From NCBI GenBank assembly GCA_950106755.1, contig OX467087.1:17364047-17428046 (forward strand): a stretch of DNA of 64,000 nucleotides, in the 5' to 3' direction. A program made the translations under genes and the position numbers. The notes beneath the pieces were generated by a model that worked only from the letters and a program-made list of their open reading frames with translations, was not told the origin of the DNA and ran no database searches. Shown here piece after piece: positions 4,888-52,747 of the stretch. Numbering within the stretch: the first letter of the stretch is position 1; every line of letters begins with the position of its first letter. This DNA is from Climacium dendroides (taxonomy: Eukaryota > Streptophyta > Bryopsida > Hypnales > Climaciaceae).

Positions 4888-5214
4888 CACTAAAAGAAAA
4901 CTAGATTGCCCATGAGTTTACACTATGTTGGGAACGACCAAACCATGTCATATGGTTTTTGTTGAGATCCTTGTTTTAAACGCTAAAATTCTACGTTGGA
5001 GTGTTGTTTCGAACGCTAAAATTCTATGTTGAAGTGCATTGCAATGCAAAATTTTGTGTTAGAATGCATTCCAACGCAGAATGTCAGTTTGAAAACTACA
5101 CTCCAACGCAGAATTTCAATGTTTAAAACAAGGATCTTAACAAAAACCATATGACATGGTTTGGTCATTCCTGACACAGTTTAAACTCATGGGCAACCTA
5201 GTTTTCATCTAGTG
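4888..5214. mobile_element. CACTA-type hairpin MITE, 327 bp
   Basis: The left end is CACTAAAAGAAAACTAG and the right end is CTAGTTTTCATCTAGTG. The inner arms pair over long stretches (for example AACCATGTCATATGG on the left against CCATATGACATGGTT on the right). The 3-bp flank ATA occurs on both sides (4885-4887, 5215-5217). The middle has an AACGC(A/T)AAATTCT-like motif repeated in both orientations. It is non-coding. Confidence 0.85.
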
Positions 5215-7551: not shown

Positions 7552-10500
7552 CTAATTGGATTTGAGCTTCAAGATACCATTCTGAAGAAGACGTTTCACT
7601 TTGTTAAAGCTAAAGCTTGGAGCATGAATAAAAAGATTTACTTTTGCATCTAATTGACAAATGCCAACAAACTGAAAGTACAAGTGCTTGCAATTTGCCC
7701 ATTGTCCTCTTTTTCCTAGAGCCTTTGTTGACATCTCTTTGAAATATGGGCAAGTACATTCAGGAAATGAACTTATAGTGACTATGTACTGTTTAAAGGC
7801 AAGTAGTGTACCTTAGTCAAGTATGATGATGCACCCAAAGCCAAGGTGCGGTACCATAGTTCCCTAACAAACCGTTGCCTTCAATGTTAGGGCTAAAGTG
7901 CAATTATTAGCTTGTTTATTGTAAGTGCTTTAGGATTCCTTCGCATCTTCTTGCTTGACTGCATCCTAGGATGCTCCATGGGAGACTCTGGAATTTGAAC
8001 CCCTGAAACATCAACTAGTAGATCATGGTTTCCAAATAGCCTGCGAGGGGAGATTTCAACACGTTGCAAAAGATGGAACCCCACATTTTGAAGATACAAA
8101 ATCTCTTTTGGCGTTAAACTAGTTCCAACTTTTACTAGCCAAGAATGACACTTTTGGTTTAGAAAGAACCCATTTTTGTCGTGAACCTTTCACGCAACAC
8201 GAAATGTTGTTGTTGCAGAAGAAAAATTCCATCTTCTCAATTCTATTCTTCATGTAATTGTCCATGCTTTTGGTGTACATAGGTGCAACGGTGGCTCTAT
8301 TGCCTTGCACTATCTTCGCAATGTACTTCTTCCTTATAATGGCCTGCAATGCAAAACCCACCTTAGAAGATGTCTTATTCAACTGGGCAGTATGCCATTG
8401 AGACTCGTCACAATTAGTTTCTTGAACGCTTCTCACTTGAGAGGCTGAATTGTTGTGTCAATTGACATTAGATTATATGACTTCAATAACTTTGTATTGT
8501 CTTCATCTATAGATGGCCATGCTTCTTCAGCAATTTTGTCCAAGCAAATAACTGATGTACGTGCTGTGGTGGCCCTTGTTCCTATATAGGGTTGGGAGAA
8601 ATTCACTTTGTCAAGGCGGTGTGAATTGTGCTCAGAACAAGGTGGAAGGTTGGGCATTTGCTTCTCAAATCCAAAACTTCTTTGCCTTCAAAATGAGGCT
8701 CTCTAGTACAATACTCTCCAAGATTTGGTATAGATGCCATGGCATCATTCAATCCTTTTGGATTACCTATACGTTAGACATACTTTGCGCTAAACAAAGC
8801 GGTAGTTCTTTTCTTGGACCATTTCTTGGATTCTCATCTTTCAAAAACTGGTAATATCTAACCATTTGCATGAAAGCACAAACGTAGTCATCCACAATAA
8901 TCATGTACAAATCAGATTCTCACTTTCCAAACTCCTGCATCCACTTATTATAGACCGTCTCAGCAAGGTTTCAAGTAGAAACTTGCGCAAGTTCATCTTT
9001 AGATAGTCCTTGTTCTACAGAGCACATGTGAGGATTACAAAAAAAAAAGTACAAAAGTTTTAGTGTTTGACAATTTAAGTTTAGAGTTTCTGCATGAAGA
9101 ACTTATCAATTTGAAGAGAGCAAGTATTTTTGAAATGCATGATTAATAAGGCCAAAAGAAACAACAGAAGCATGAAATTTAGCTTCAGAACACTAGAAGA
9201 AACCCGTGACGTTTTGTAATTTTTTTAGACGGATTTTAGGTGACGTCGGAAAAAACAACTTGTGTTTTTTTTGTGTCTAATATAACATCTGGATGTTATA
9301 TTAGACACAAAAAAACACAAGTTGTTTTTTCCGACGTCACCTAAAATCCGTCTAAAAAAATTACAAAACGTCACCTAAAACGCGGGTTTCTTCTAGTGGA
9401 AACAAAAGGTACCAATTACACATAGAGAATTCAAGAATCTTACAGTGTCTATGAATGCTCCCCACTGTCTATATGGAAAGTGCCAAAACACTAACCATAA
9501 TTCTAAGCACCTAAGATCGTCCACAATTGTAGCTCCAAAAGAATGCCACCACATTTGAATTGCATGAAACCTAATTTTTGACTTTGTTAAGGAATTAGTA
9601 CCTTTATACTGCTTGCACAACTTTCAATGCTGATCTTGAAGGTCACCACAAATGTCTATTTTTGTGTGTTTTTCATCGACTGAGTCTAGTGAAATAAACA
9701 TATATGTTCTCAATTGGGCACGGGATCGGTTGGGTCACCATTTCTATAAACCATTCGCATTGTATTCCAATATGCTTGTGTCAAATCAGCCATGAATCCC
9801 TTAAAGTAAGGCATTGTAAGTCCATATCTACCCATACCAACGTTTAAGTTTTTCCTAAAGTCGCATTGGACAACTACATCTTTTGATTGCATATCATATA
9901 TCACAATAGTCATGACACAACAGTAGCTTATGTCATAAATATGACATATAATTGTTGTCTTGCGTTTCACTTGTCTAACATGATCAAACATGATCCAAGC
10001 ATCTTCTAGGTTACCACCAAGTTGTATATGTGTTACCAAGTCCACGCCACTACTAGGACCGATCTTTGACATTTTGAAGACAAATACTTTATCAAAATCA
10101 GATCCCTATCTAGGGAATTTGTTCTTTTGTACAAAAGTGCAATTGCTACAACCATGGAGTTTTGTGATGCTATCCATAACTCCAAAATGGCGAAAGTACT
10201 TGAACGTTCCACTCAACTTGGTCCCAAATCAAATACTAAGTTCCTTCTTTGGATGCCCGATAGTCTCCATCTTTTACAAGGTGATTGTGAGTACCAAAAT
10301 GAATACAAGCTCAAGTCATGTCCTTGGAACCAACTACATAGTAGATTTTGGTAGAACAACTATTAATACAGGATGGAACAGTAGAGTACATCTTGCACGC
10401 GATAGTTGAACCACGTGGAGGATTAGCATGAACCTCAAATGGAATAGGAGAACAACCATCCCATTTAGTCTCGTTGATGAGGGCTACACGGTGTTGAGGA

Positions 10501-17705: not shown

Positions 17706-18480
17706 TCTCACATACTAGCAAGGTTTTATACAAAGTTGTCTCACATACTAGCAAGGTTTTGTACCAAGTTGTATATGGCTAGTCTTGTTTGGCTGGAAAT
17801 GGGAAATCACCTATTCAACTTCAATTCCCCATTTGCAGCAAGCCACCCAAATTCACATTATGTGGTTATAGACCCTAAAAGCCAAAGTCCTTTCATGAAA
17901 TGCGACGTTGTGGATCCCAAATTAGTCCATCTTACAAAGCGTTATTCAAATAAACGATTTCGTGCGAAGCATCCTCTGTTCCATGAGCAATACATATTCC
18001 CATCACGTCAGCGAGAAGGCGTGACACAAACATCAGGTCGAACTTAACCAAAACCCTTCGAGTAGTTGGCAAACAGGACAGGATTTAACACAAAAACTAC
18101 AGAAGGAACGCAATTTTACAGTCAAACGCCAGCATTCGCCAGTCACAACAGATCAAGATTTAGGAAACTCCTCGAATTGCCTAAACAGATCGCCAATGTT
18201 AATAAATGCACCCGACAGCAAAACACGGAACTACATCACTTAGGTCATCGCCTACAGCACGTCCCCCATACAAGACTACCGCATGACGCCATACCCACAA
18301 TAAGACCAGTTGCCAACACCACAAACAAGAAAAACATCTCGTAACAGCTTCGATCCAATTCCAATAGCAGGCACAACGACCGCATGCATTCTCACGCACA
18401 GCAGAACGCCTCATTTAATCAGTGACGCTCTCATCGCTGGGAGAGAAGTCGAGCAAACAGTGCTTCCAAATGAGGAGCGG
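17706..18480. other. Less AT-rich DNA 3' of the H2B gene
   Basis: This starts with a 33-bp tandem duplication (17706-17738 and 17739-17771, unit TCTCACATACTAGCAAGG...). Base composition rises here and stays less AT-rich through the H2B gene, as expected of a host-gene island. Open frames on both strands, such as 17736-18047, have no recognisable motif and I do not call them genes. No poly(A) signal stands out on the minus strand just after the histone hairpin. Confidence 0.45.
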
Positions 18481-18481
18481 T

Positions 18482-18515
18482 GGCTTTCTTACAAAGGATG
18501 GTGTTCAGAAACACC
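18482..18515 (-). terminator. Histone mRNA 3'-end stem-loop plus downstream purine element
   Basis: Reading the minus strand, GGTGTTTCTGAACACC (18515-18500) starts 36 nt after the H2B stop. GGTGTT pairs with AACACC over 6 bp around the loop TCTG. The animal/green-algal histone consensus GGYYYUUYUNARRRCC is met at all positions except one paired stem position, which is G-C instead of Y-R, so the stem stays intact. Eight nucleotides further is TAAGAAAGCC (18491-18482), placed like the purine-rich histone downstream element (typically CAAGAAAGA) that pairs with U7 snRNA in animals. Two broken H2B copies keep related hairpins. The function is inferred from consensus and position. Confidence 0.75.
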
Positions 18516-18551
18516 AATTAGGTTTGTGTAGGGCCGGGATTCACCAGTGCT

Positions 18552-19131
18552 TCAAGCACTCGTAAACTTCGTCACCGCCTTCGTCCCTTCCGACACGGCG
18601 TGCTTCGCCAACTCACCAGGCAAGATCAGACGCACCGCAGTCTGGATCTCGCGACTGGTGATCGTCGGCTTCTTGTTGTACCGCGCCAACCGAGCGGCCT
18701 CCTGCGCCAGCTTCTCGAAGATGTCGTTGATGAACGAGTTCATAATACCCATCGCCTTCGACGAGATACCGGTGTCAGGATGCACCTGTACAAATAAAAG
18801 GCCGTTACGTTAGACAACCCACGACGAAACCATTCCCCTTTCAGAAGCTCAAACGCACCAAAGGACCCCAACCTCACCATAACGCGAAACCCCAAAACCA
18901 GACACCAACGAATCTCAAAAACACAAAAAAATGAAGCAAAACACAGACACATACCTGCTTCAACACCTTGTAGATGTAAATCTTGTAGGTCTCCACGCTC
19001 TTCTTCGAGCGCTTCTTCTTCGCATCGCCCTTGCTATCGGCCTTGATCTTCTTCTCCGCCTTCTTCACCACCGGCTTCTTCTCGGCCTTGGACTTGCCTG
19101 CCTTCTGCTCCTCTGCAACCTTGGGCGCCAT
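18552..19131 (-). CDS. Histone H2B, 136 aa, one intron
   Basis: This is core histone H2B, which pairs with H2A in the nucleosome. Exon 1 (19131-18955, 59 codons) holds [15 protein letters not shown], a lysine-rich tail of about 45 residues, then [13 protein letters not shown] at the start of the fold. Exon 2 (18785-18552) begins [13 protein letters not shown] and ends [10 protein letters not shown], with the AGTCAT-ubiquitylation-type C-terminal lysine context AVTKFTS. The 169-bp phase-0 intron (18954-18786) has GTATGT at its donor and TTTGTACAG at its acceptor; exon 2 starts with a GTG valine codon, not a start. The reading frame is intact and full length. The start is supported by the conserved GAATGGCG context, by the TATA box 120 bp upstream and by the matching starts in the pseudogenes. 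An intron inside H2B is unusual for plants. The 3' hairpin suggests cell-cycle-regulated, non-polyadenylated mRNA. Confidence 0.97.
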
Positions 19132-24353: not shown

Positions 24354-26023
24354 TAAACATTGGAAGGTTAGAAAACCAATTTCATATGAGACTTTGGTAT
24401 TTGAGAAAAAATCTTGAGGAAGTTCAAAAACCTTATAAATTAAAAAAAGATGTATTTGAAAGTGTATAGAACTTGTAAAACAAGTGAAATATAAAAGCAG
24501 TATGAATAGATGGAGTTAGAGAGTAGTAATTAGCCAACTCTGGAATGAAATATCCAAATCTAAGATTCATCTACGAATGTTAAAACAACCCATTATTGAC
24601 CAAAATATGAAAGGATGAAGTTTAAAGAAGAATTCATCCCAAACTTTGAAATCCTATAACTTTTGCATACATAGTCGGTTTAAAATGTGTAAATCCTTTT
24701 TAGAATCAACACAAAAGTCTATATAACATCCATCCATGAAAATTAGCAAATGATTCACTTGAATTTTTGAGGACCAAAGTTTTTCCATTAGTGTTAGGTT
24801 AAACATACCAAACAAGCTCAACTTTTATTTTTTTTAATCAACTATAAGTAAAACTTCAGATACTTAAAGATTAAAAATAAACCTAAAAACTTCATTGTTT
24901 TAAAGGTTGATTGGACAAGTGCATAGATATGCAACATAAGATTTTTCAAATAAAACAAAGTCAAAGTCTCCAAAATCTAGTCATGTCCGTTTCATTGCAA
25001 TGGGGGAGATAAAATGCTTACAAACCCCTTTACTAATGTTTGAATTGCAAATGTGTCATTAGAGTTGTCTTGTCCTTCAATTGCTTCAACACCTCTAAAT
25101 ATTGTGAATTTTGTTCAAATGGCAGTATTCCATGTGCAATTTTAAAATCACAAAATCACCATAATTAGTATAGATTTCAAATTAGATAGTCTAAATCTCA
25201 AAAGTAACATCTAGGATTGGTATAGATGTTAGACATCGAGGACAAGTATAGAGTTTAGATTGAATGATTTAAACTATAAAACTAAGTTATTGAATGAGTG
25301 TCATTTCCACAAAAGAAATTCCCCATAAATACAAGATGTACTTATTTACAACAAAGCTAGATGTCCACCAAAAAATATAACAATCCATTATAAGAAAACC
25401 TTGTTTTAGGTGACATTCAAAAAAACAGCCGACGTCAAAGGGAACGAATTTTAGGTGACGTTGAAAAAAACAACCTGTATTTTTCATGTCAATAATGATG
25501 TCCAATGGAACATTAATGGAGATAATTGTTGACAGAAAAACATAGGTTGTTTTCTTCAACGTCACCTAAAATCCGTTCCCTTAGACATCGAAAATTTTGG
25601 TTTCTTCTAGATATCTATGCCACCTAATATGAGATCTTGTATAGCTAGTGTATGACCTCTTCAATTGATTCGCTACATCTACATCACCTGAAAATGGATT
25701 GTATATTGTAAATGCATCCGTGGAGTGAAAAGCATACGATGAAGTGTACCACTTTGATGTAATAATTGTAAAATGGGTTCACATAGCAAGGCAATAAGGT
25801 TTGCATGTGTAGAAATAATTAAACAATATGGCTTTCATATCCTTCTAAATAAGACAAACTAATTTGTAAGAATAATGCATTGTCCAATCTAAGTACCTTG
25901 CTTGGATTTGTTGAATCCTTTCACTATAAGAGAAAGGGGCAATTTAAGTAAAGTCCTAGGAGTATAGTTCTAAAAGTAATGACCTTTTAAAGAGATTTTT
26001 AGTAAAATTTTATTAGAAATAAA
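24354..26023. other. AT-rich intergenic DNA
   Basis: Apart from the MITE at 25386-25612 I see only decayed sequence without coding signal. Confidence 0.45.
25386..25612. mobile_element. Diverged CACTA-type hairpin MITE
   Basis: It starts CATTATAAGAAAACC and ends GGTTTCTTCTAG. The arms share TTAGGTGACGTT and its inverse with the 208-bp MITE at 9191-9398, and TTTTTTCAACGTCACCTAAA-like sequence. The ends have lost the exact CACTA bases and no target duplication is clear, so it is an older copy. Confidence 0.65.
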
Positions 26024-30000: not shown

Positions 30001-33000
30001 AATTTTTGGTAATCTTTCACACGAAGAGGAATCTTGGTGAACCGATTTTGCTATTGAACTCCTAGCATGATTTCTTTTTAAAACTGCCACATTTATATCA
30101 TAGATGCCTTTCTCTGGTCTGTCTTGAGTTTCTTCGCCTACATGCTAACAATTAAGATTTCTACTATTTTGTCGGTTTGATGGAAAAGCTGAAACTTCTC
30201 TCCAGAACTAGTTTAGGATTTTCATGTAGGTTCCCTTGGATCAATTTAGCCATGTCTTTATCACATGCAAGTTAGGTTTGGCTATTTCGGACAATTCTAC
30301 TTAAATACTATAATATGTACAAGTTTTTTTTATTTCTATTCTATTTACATGCGGATTTTATGTTACGTTTCAAGGAAAATATGCTAATTAGGACCAAATA
30401 CTATAATGGCATGTAACACACCTATTTTGGCTTTATATTCTTTTTATGGATTTTTTGTAGATTAATTCACACTCAAAAGAAAAAAAAAAATGAGTCCCGA
30501 GTGACAAATCGAGCATTCACAACTTGCAAAAAACACAAGCAATTACCATTGCATAAATCCTTTGTCAAATTCAAGTTCCTTAGCAACATGACATATAGAC
30601 CACATTTTAGATTTAATTGGTGAAAAGACAAACCACTGAGTTGTAATGAATTAAAAAACTCTACTGGATAATGATGGGTATGCTCATTATTTTCATGTAC
30701 AAAATCAGTACTAAAATATTGATGCACATCACCAGACATGCAATCAGTGATTTTTCGATTGATATCTTGAACATCATCATTTCACACAGCCAAAATAACA
30801 CACTTAAAGAAATCAACCAAATGATCAAAAATGACATCAATGAGACCATTTAAAGAGTTTCTAACCGCAACCATTCCTAACAGTAAATCCACTTTTGAAC
30901 CGATTTTGTCCTCATTAATATCTAACAAAAATCGTTGAAAGTCTAGTTGACTTTGCAAACGCATATTTGTGGTCAAATAAAAATGTTGCATCAATGAAAA
31001 TAAATATGAACGTTGCAACCAAGCCTCAACAGTTTGTTGGCGGCCTTCACGTACAACTATGGACAAAGTTTGGCAAAAACCACCACCATATAAAACTACA
31101 AGCCCACCGTTTAAACAATTTAAACCCTGGATATCTCGTAAAAATCTATCTATAATTTTTATCATAAATCGATGTTCAACACAAGCTTCATCAAGTACAA
31201 TCAATTGCACTTCTCGCAAACTTTGAGTCAACGACAATTGGACACTAGTATTACAAGTCAAGGCCTCATGCAATTGTAATGGAATGATAAGAGAGGAATG
31301 TAGTGTTCGTCCTTTATGGAAAAGGCAAGCAGCTATTTCACTTATTGTCATTGCCATACATTTGACACCACAACCACGAAGATAACCTAATATGTCATTA
31401 TACATAAAAAATTTGTCGATCCCACCAAACTCATTCATGAAAAAAAAAATATTTTAGAAGTTGGTATTTTAAAACAGCAGAAGTCATTGTATTGAAAACA
31501 ATGTGTTGCTGTTCATTGAGTCTATCTATATCTTTCTTTACAAAATGAATGTTTTGAATATCTAAATCATTGTTGTCATTGGCATCAATACCAACATCAA
31601 CAATATTTGAATAACCATAGTCATTCAAATATTGAGTGTCAAAAAAATCTATAATGTGTTTATTTGAAGATGACAAATACTCATAGATAAAAATAACTTT
31701 AGAATAGCAGTTGGATCATCATGCTAATCATTAGATATAATATCAAAATGTTTTCTAAATAAATTAAGAGAATTCAACGAATTTCCAAATACACAAAACA
31801 TTGCAAACAACCGCCGAATTTGTTTAAGCAAAGCAATGAGAGATGCTTCTTGAAGACAATTGTCCCATTCGACATCATCTTGCAAAAGACCTCTTGTAAT
31901 ACAAGTGGCTTTAAACGTTGAATGAACTATATCTTAAAAAGAAAATAAGTCATCAAATGAAGTTAGTGCTTTAACATTGATCAACAACAAATACAAATAA
32001 AATAAGTCAGTACCTATGAGAATCATATTTACCCTACCAAATTTTTTTATTTTGCGTTGTCTTCTTTTCCATATATTCTTCTTTACATTCCACTTATAAT
32101 AAAGTGGAAGATCTATGTATTGAAGAAGCGTATAATTGTTTTGATTATCAGAAGTAATTAAGGTACAAATACAGTGATTGAGTTCAAAAAACTTTGTGAG
32201 TTTAATCTCAGTATTTTAATCAATCACCAATTACAAAATGTATCTTTGTGAAAGGCAACATACTACTGATTGAGAAAATAAATCGGTAAACGACAAATAC
32301 TATGACTTTTATTGTTGGTTTCAAAACTAAAGAGTCTTTAACATGCTTCTTGAGCAGTCAAATAACAGCCCTCAAAAAAATCCTTAATCTCATCTACTAC
32401 CTCATTGATTTCTATCACTCCACAATTTGGACCCTTAAAAATACACTTGTAGAGGTATTTGATAGTTTTTACTCAATTGGAAACCTCCACATTAATATAG
32501 CAATTAAAATGGTCTATCAAATGTAGGTTGTATGGCAGAACCCATTGATTATTCAAGCGGACAATTTGACCTCATGTATGTTTCTCAACATTTTTACCAT
32601 GATTTCAGCGATAGTACAAAATATGGCCGTCACCATCAACCACAGTGGTATCTCGAACTTACATAGGATAGTTCTTTAAATATCTATTGTCTTCCATACA
32701 AAAACAATTGGAATTGTTCAAACCACATAAGACATGCATCATGTGCTTTACAACCACCATATAAAGCAATGATTGTCTATTCACATATGAAATCTCAGCA
32801 CATACAAATCTATCTACAACATCACAATTGTTGATCTTGTCTTTCAACCCAAAAAGAATGTGAGCATAAGGAAGACTATGCTTTTGAAACTCGATAGTGT
32901 AACAAAAAAACAATTGTTTTTCCCAACACATTTTTTTGTGATTTATTTTCTTGTGGCTTCAATTTGAGCTCAAAAACATGTACAACTAAATCTGGACAAT

Positions 33001-52158: not shown

Positions 52159-52698
52159 ATGGCGTCTAAGTTCACTGAGGAGTAGAAGGCTGGCAAGTCC
52201 AAAGCTGAGAAGAAGCCCATAGTGAAAAAAGCGGAGAAGAAGATCAAGGCCGACAGTAAGGGTAATGTGAAGAAGAAGTGTTCAAAGAAGAGCATAGAGA
52301 CGTACAAAATTTACATTTACAAGGTGTTGAAGTAGGTATGTTTCTGTGTAATTTGGCTTTTTTTTTTGTATTTTGAGTTCTTTGATTTGTGAGTTGGCGT
52401 TGTGGTGCGTTTGAGACCTTGAAGAGGAATGGTTTTGTTTACTGAGCGTCTTTTGTTGGGACAAGTGCATCCTGACACTGGTATCTCTTTGAAGGTGATA
52501 GATATCATGAACTCGTTCATCAACAACATCTTCGAGAAGCTTGCGTAGGAGGACGCTTATTTGGCTCGTTACAACAAGAAGCTGATGATCACTAGTCGTG
52601 AGATCTAGGCGGTGGTGCATCTGATCTTGCTTGGCGAGTTGGTGAAGTACGTAGTATCTAAGGGTATGAAGGTGGTGATGAAGTTCACGATTGCATGA
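52159..52698 (+). pseudogene. Histone H2B pseudogene, copy B (intron retained)
   Basis: Same structure as copy A. Shared stops: codon 9 TAG, TAG at the end of exon 1, and GCGTAG in the first exon 2 helix. It adds a private TAG in GAGATCTAG, where the intact gene reads GAGATCCAG, while copy A keeps CAG there. The TATAAA box is at 52031-52036. In places this copy is closer to the intact gene than copy A (for example the 3' hairpin), so the two decayed separately after the block duplicated. Confidence 0.93.
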
Positions 52699-52731: not shown

Positions 52732-52747
52732 GGTGTTTATGAACACC
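52732..52747 (+). promoter_or_regulatory. Histone 3' hairpin, pseudogene copy B
   Basis: GGTGTTTATGAACACC keeps the full 6-bp stem of the intact gene, with loop TATG instead of TCTG. CTACGAAAGCC follows at the spacing of the downstream purine element. Confidence 0.75.

Follow-up and report, generated by a model that had tools for sequence, protein, structure and literature searches.

The window, a 64-kb stretch of the genome of Climacium dendroides (412.6 Mb, 123 contigs; C35:17364047-17428046), harbors on its minus strand a histone H2B gene with one intron. Exon 1 (18955-19131) comprises 59 codons and ends at the donor CAG|GTATGT, while exon 2 (18552-18785) ends with a TGA stop (18554-18552). 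The joined protein matches PF00125 with 83.7 bits and is 94% identical to H2B.11 of Physcomitrium patens and 99% identical to a protein from a metagenome. The sequence-only reading had described a hairpin behind this gene, and the hairpin GGTGTT-TCTG-AACACC is indeed located 36 nt past the stop on the minus strand (18515-18500). It is followed after 8 nt by the purine-rich element TAAGAAAGCC (18491-18482), as had likewise been claimed, at the position of a histone downstream element. The pentamer TGTAA, which we take to be a motif of algal and plant poly(A) signals, is found 6 nt after the hairpin. A second perfect hairpin on the same strand (AGTGCT-TGA-AGCACT, 18546-18560), the loop of which is formed by the H2B stop codon, appears in the computed fold, but is not conserved in the pseudogenes described below. 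Five near-identical H2B genes lie, together with degenerate copies, within approximately 200 kb around the window (G000 C35:17332440-17528942).

Two H2B pseudogenes with in-frame stops and a retained intron are located on the plus strand of the window, copy A at 1243-1783 and its near-duplicate copy B at 52159-52695. The hairpin of copy B (GGTGTT-TATG-AACACC, 52732-52747) has kept all six pairs, whereas that of copy A (GGTGTA-TACG-AACACC, 1826-1841) is decayed and has lost the top pair, which qualifies the earlier statement that both copies carry the same element. Since the copies are 91.4% identical over 2175 aligned positions, they count as one witness, and their use as two independent ones was rejected. 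Compared with the pseudogenes, the gene shows 82-84% identity over its exons and 68-70% over what can be aligned of the intron. From the stop to the hairpin the value is 53-57%, and past the hairpin block it is 48-50%. The block itself, 45 nt comprising the hairpin and its downstream part (18474-18518), is identical at 78% (copy A) and 84% (copy B) and is better kept than the 3' flanks with their 48-57% (P = 1.4e-3 for copy A and 7e-5 for copy B). Compared to the intron the difference was not significant (P = 0.26 and 0.08, respectively). That the element is an old part of the gene is backed by the conservation of the block against its flanks, with the two pseudogenes as a single witness.

When the 120 nt following the H2B stop were shuffled 20,000 times with their dinucleotide composition preserved, a perfect GG..CC hairpin with a 6-bp stem and a 4-nt loop was obtained 29 times, with a U-A top pair twice and with both the U-A top pair and a U-Y-U loop not at all. 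The only perfect GG..CC hairpins of this shape in the 64 kb are that of the H2B gene and that of pseudogene B. The looser motif GGNNNTTYTNANNNCC was found twice in the window against an expectation of 1.18, which is not significant, and the 91-nt region containing the hairpin has an unremarkable folding energy (z = -1.18; equalled by 29 of 200 shuffles). Among Rfam families, Histone3 (RF00032) matched best in a 241-nt stretch including the hairpin (18.6 bits, E = 0.011). This score is below the gathering score of 34, with an E-value of only 2.8 over the whole window, and no Histone3 match was obtained at the hairpin region of either pseudogene. As outside controls, eukaryotic H2B stretches in five bacterial MAG records (L001-L005) were used, which are likely assembly contamination. 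In four of the five, a hairpin follows the stop at a distance of 26-34 nt. Histone3 scores at or above gathering were obtained for three of these hairpins. The remaining one (L005, GGCGTT/AACGCC), which shares the G-C pair 4 of the moss stem, scores 17.7 bits, so that a low Histone3 score does not exclude a real element. One of these records (L004) also carries U1, U2 and 5S RNA genes.

The other histone genes of the genome, to which the sequence-only reading had pointed, carry the same hairpin in all five histone classes. Upon gene-by-gene inspection it was identified at 27 genes of H1, H2A, H2B, H3 and H4, the window gene and 26 others, at distances of 20-46 nt from the stop. A genome-wide search for the exact pattern GGTGTTNNNNAACACCAYC gave 28 matches, compared to 0 for the reversed control. 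Twenty-four of the matches are located at histone genes (H1, 3; H2A, 4; H2B, 5; H3, 5; H4, 7), two at degenerate H2B copies (copy B of the window and L044) and two in a single non-histone repeat (L088, L089), so that 26 of the 28 are histone-linked when the degenerate copies are included. At L017, L076 and L078 the hairpin deviates from the exact pattern in one or two bases; these three genes complete the total of 27. The gene-by-gene counts leave aside partial H4 matches (L025-L028), the H2B matches L054, L055 and L059, seven weaker H1 matches (PF00538) and centromeric-H3-like matches.

Nine H4 genes encode a protein identical to the query, eight of which have the hairpin GGTGTT-NNTN-AACACC (in one case with AATACC) 31-43 nt past the stop, the exception being L019. 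Four divergent H4 genes showed no such hairpin within the 127 nt examined. A cluster of divergent H4 genes (L021-L026, G000 C3:13176847-13239211), the products of which are 84-86% identical and end with LLGFGG, is likewise without the hairpin in the 127 nt examined and perhaps represents an H4 variant. Nine stretches of 9.9 kb around canonical H4 genes contained no related histone gene besides the H4 copies themselves. The hairpin was found at five of six intronless H3 genes (20-34 nt past the stop; not at L064) and at all three clear H1 genes (28-30 nt). Besides the two window pseudogenes, 12 loci have matches to H2B exon 2; eight of the genes are readable and five of these carry the hairpin, namely the near-identical L038-L042, L042 being the window gene. 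L043, L045 and L046 are without it, while L044 has the hairpin, but is a degenerate copy. At L043 (G000 C34:14663823) the string GGTGTTATTTAATGC is located approximately 95 nt past the stop and might be a decayed hairpin. Ten H2A loci were inspected, and six of the eight non-Z genes (L075, L076, L078-L081) have the hairpin 35-46 nt past the stop; it is missing at the non-Z genes L077 and L084 and at the two H2A.Z-like genes. Both H2A and H2B genes contain introns. H2B was also sought in viral contigs, where none was found.

The moss stem, GGUGUU-NNNN-AACACC, is almost invariant, with one-base variants at two genes. The loop always consists of 4 nt; over the 27 hairpins, its first position is U in 19, A in 5 and C in 3, and its third is U in 16 and A in 11. 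The base preceding the stem is U in 22 of 27 and the 3' flank A(C/U)C in 25 of 27. In animals the stem follows the consensus GGYYYU/ARRRCC. The moss stem, with G-C instead of a pyrimidine-purine pair at position 4, departs from it and likewise does not fit the GGYYYUUYUNARRRCC given in the sequence-only reading, since position 4 is G and pairs with the C at position 13. Downstream of the hairpin, the purine fraction over 23 unique sequences peaks at 0.87 at +12 and +13, and GAA is present between +6 and +22 in 15 of the 23, compared to 2.6 in shuffles (0 of 2000 shuffles as high). A purine-rich element is thus statistically supported at the position expected of a histone downstream element.

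A different hairpin, GGGTTC-TTNT-GAACCC, was detected 54-62 nt past the stop at three of five intron-containing H3 genes (L070, L074 and L071; G000 C2:34789513, 34805759 and 34813817), while the two others have no hairpin. Judged by gene structure only, these five genes may be H3.3-like. Among the putative replication-independent variants the picture is mixed: the two H2A.Z-like genes and two of these H3 genes have no hairpin, and three have the second one. The second hairpin occurs three times in the genome, exclusively at these H3 genes, and not at all in the control. It differs from GGTGTT in three pairs, on both sides of the stem, and pairing is still perfect. At all three genes an AATAAA precedes it, with the two starts 15 nt apart.

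Two loci with an SLBP RNA-binding domain (PF15247) were identified in the genome, a protein family which the sequence-only reading had named as an expected partner of the hairpin. Two exons encode the domain at each locus, with the junction at VPR|YQR, and the joined domains score 114.4 and 113.7 bits (cut-off 27). The first of them can be aligned to the solved SLBP chains 4TUX, 4TV0, 4TUW and 4L8R. The idea of mosses without SLBP was dropped in view of these loci. In a protein search with a length filter of about 133-422 aa, 120 of 181 matches were listed, and neither a named moss nor a named angiosperm SLBP was among these 120. For the moss this would be explained by the apparently greater length of the protein, the first exon of which comprises nearly 400 codons. 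SLBP is also carried by proteins of Chlamydomonas and its relatives, five proteins with Gb_ identifiers, which we read as Ginkgo, two from Taxus chinensis and one from Cryptomeria japonica. The Taxus and Cryptomeria records are located on contigs of more than 700 Mb. In a tree of 47 rows, which does not comprise the moss SLBP, the gymnosperm proteins group with plant-like proteins in a 22-row fork (support 86/92, not a starred fork). When five plant SLBPs were compared with the moss exons by tblastn, identity over the first half of the domain was 66-88%. Moss and gymnosperm proteins have in common an SHKF motif preceding the domain and, as a tail, IYxxW. SLBP is reportedly traced to early eukaryotes in surveys.

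The hairpin at the H2B gene most probably represents, with a likelihood of roughly 0.8, the 3' stem-loop known from replication-type histone mRNAs, and a variant SLBP/stem-loop system would have survived in mosses. This assignment is made from genomic sequence. The hairpins in five histone classes, the two SLBP genes and the purine-rich element support the claim that SLBP-type processing persists in this lineage, with the poly(A)-free mRNA ends and the participation of U7 being its predicted parts. Of the refuting conditions named beforehand, a lack of such hairpins at other histone genes and a lack of an SLBP homologue were both examined, and neither applies. In such a system, the moss SLBP would attach to the hairpin while the pre-mRNA is still nascent. 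Cleavage within a few nucleotides downstream of the hairpin would then be carried out by a complex that uses CPSF73 and is probably directed by a U7-like RNA base-paired to the purine-rich element. The mature mRNA would end in the hairpin instead of poly(A), and the amount of histone mRNA might thereby follow S phase. For the second stem just after AAUAAA (GGGUUC/GAACCC), a polyadenylated form or two possible ends are conceivable.

The strongest alternative, which we consider unlikely, is an SLBP-bound hairpin located inside polyadenylated histone mRNAs, where it would control translation or S-phase stability, while the 3' end is formed by ordinary cleavage and polyadenylation further downstream. 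The AATAAA in front of the second stem at three intron-containing H3 genes is in line with this alternative, as is the TGTAA after the window hairpin. Furthermore, several histone genes are devoid of the hairpin and must therefore be ended otherwise, and plant histone mRNAs are described as polyadenylated in PMC6827988. A U7 snRNA was not found either: the Rfam model RF00066 gave no match in the genome, and none in the control genomes. A U7 pattern search returned 48 places compared to 14 in the control, with none convincing among the 20 of 48 inspected, and a poorly specified promoter pattern (trailing N ignored) was at background level (233 versus 267 in the control). Against polyadenylation downstream of the hairpin stands the position of the purine-rich element, the presence of which makes a U7-like guide plausible. 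Moreover, when 21 GGTGTT hairpins were scanned, AATAAA was seen upstream of none and, within the scanned stretch, downstream of only one (L076). This absence says little, however, since the hairpin-less genes L064, L019 and L043 are also without AATAAA.

It is far less probable that the hairpin is read by another protein or acts as DNA, for example as a terminator or regulator site, and that SLBP acts elsewhere. An almost invariant stem would also be expected for a DNA or sequence-specific site. In contrast, three of the intron-containing H3 genes show another, yet perfect stem in a similar place, the loop is always 4 nt long and SLBP is encoded in the genome. A chance palindrome behind a single H2B gene, which might be considered given that GGNNNTTYTNANNNCC alone is expected 1.18 times per window, was rejected as practically negligible on account of the shuffle test, the 28 exact matches against 0 in the reversed control and the recurrence at histone genes of five classes.

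The 3' stem-loop proposed for the moss resembles the metazoan stem-loop/SLBP/U7 system (RF00032) in its 6-bp stem with a GG..CC base, the 4-nt loop, the distance of 20-46 nt from the stop, the ACC-type 3' flank, the purine-rich element about 12 nt later, its presence at H1, H2A, H2B, H3 and H4 genes and the SLBP encoded in the same genome. It differs in the stem fixed as GGUGUU/AACACC with its G-C pair 4, in the U or A at the third loop position, in the Histone3 score below gathering and in the lack of a detectable U7. A further difference concerns the introns of the moss H2A and H2B genes, since typical animal replication-type genes are intronless. With the histone 3' palindromes of Volvox and Chlamydomonas it shares the occurrence of a stem-loop on histone genes of the green lineage, here in a moss instead of an alga. 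In PMC6827988, these algae are named as an exception among plants in having the histone stem-loop, and the usual description of histone mRNAs in land plants is that they are polyadenylated and devoid of it. The flowering-plant mRNAs so described are, like those of the moss, products of land-plant genes, but are said to be without a stem-loop (PMC6827988). The moss system is most probably a variant of the known SLBP/stem-loop system, in a lineage commonly described as being without it. The accessible parts of PMC5089844 and PMC7457121 hold nothing on mosses, and no report of SLBP or of the hairpin in mosses or gymnosperms was found in the open-licence literature, which does not prove priority.

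The moss hairpins in five classes, the two SLBP genes and the gymnosperm SLBPs contradict the absence of the stem-loop as a rule for all land plants. A scenario that we favor with some reserve is that the SLBP/stem-loop ending was kept at the origin of land plants, operates in mosses and, as their SLBP genes suggest, also in gymnosperms, its loss having come later, perhaps with the flowering plants. Mosses would have recoded the stem to GGUGUU/AACACC, and some intron-containing H3 genes would have acquired a second, compensated stem joined to AAUAAA, which might allow them to switch from stem-loop to poly(A) ends or back. The finding makes the loss of the system datable. Mosses are genetically tractable plants in which histone supply tied to S phase could be studied, and the near-invariant recoded stem represents a natural test of the RNA requirements of SLBP. 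How genes move from one kind of 3' end to the other might be seen from the second stem class of the intron-containing H3 genes.

Further features of the window are apart from the H2B gene. At 9238-9342, 4936-5166 and 25438-25582, animal and plant miRNA families of Rfam match long inverted repeats, mostly on both strands, which look like palindromes of mobile elements, not miRNAs. A fragment of a PIF1-like helicase (30782-31438, minus strand; PF05970, 116.6 bits) is perhaps derived from a Helitron.
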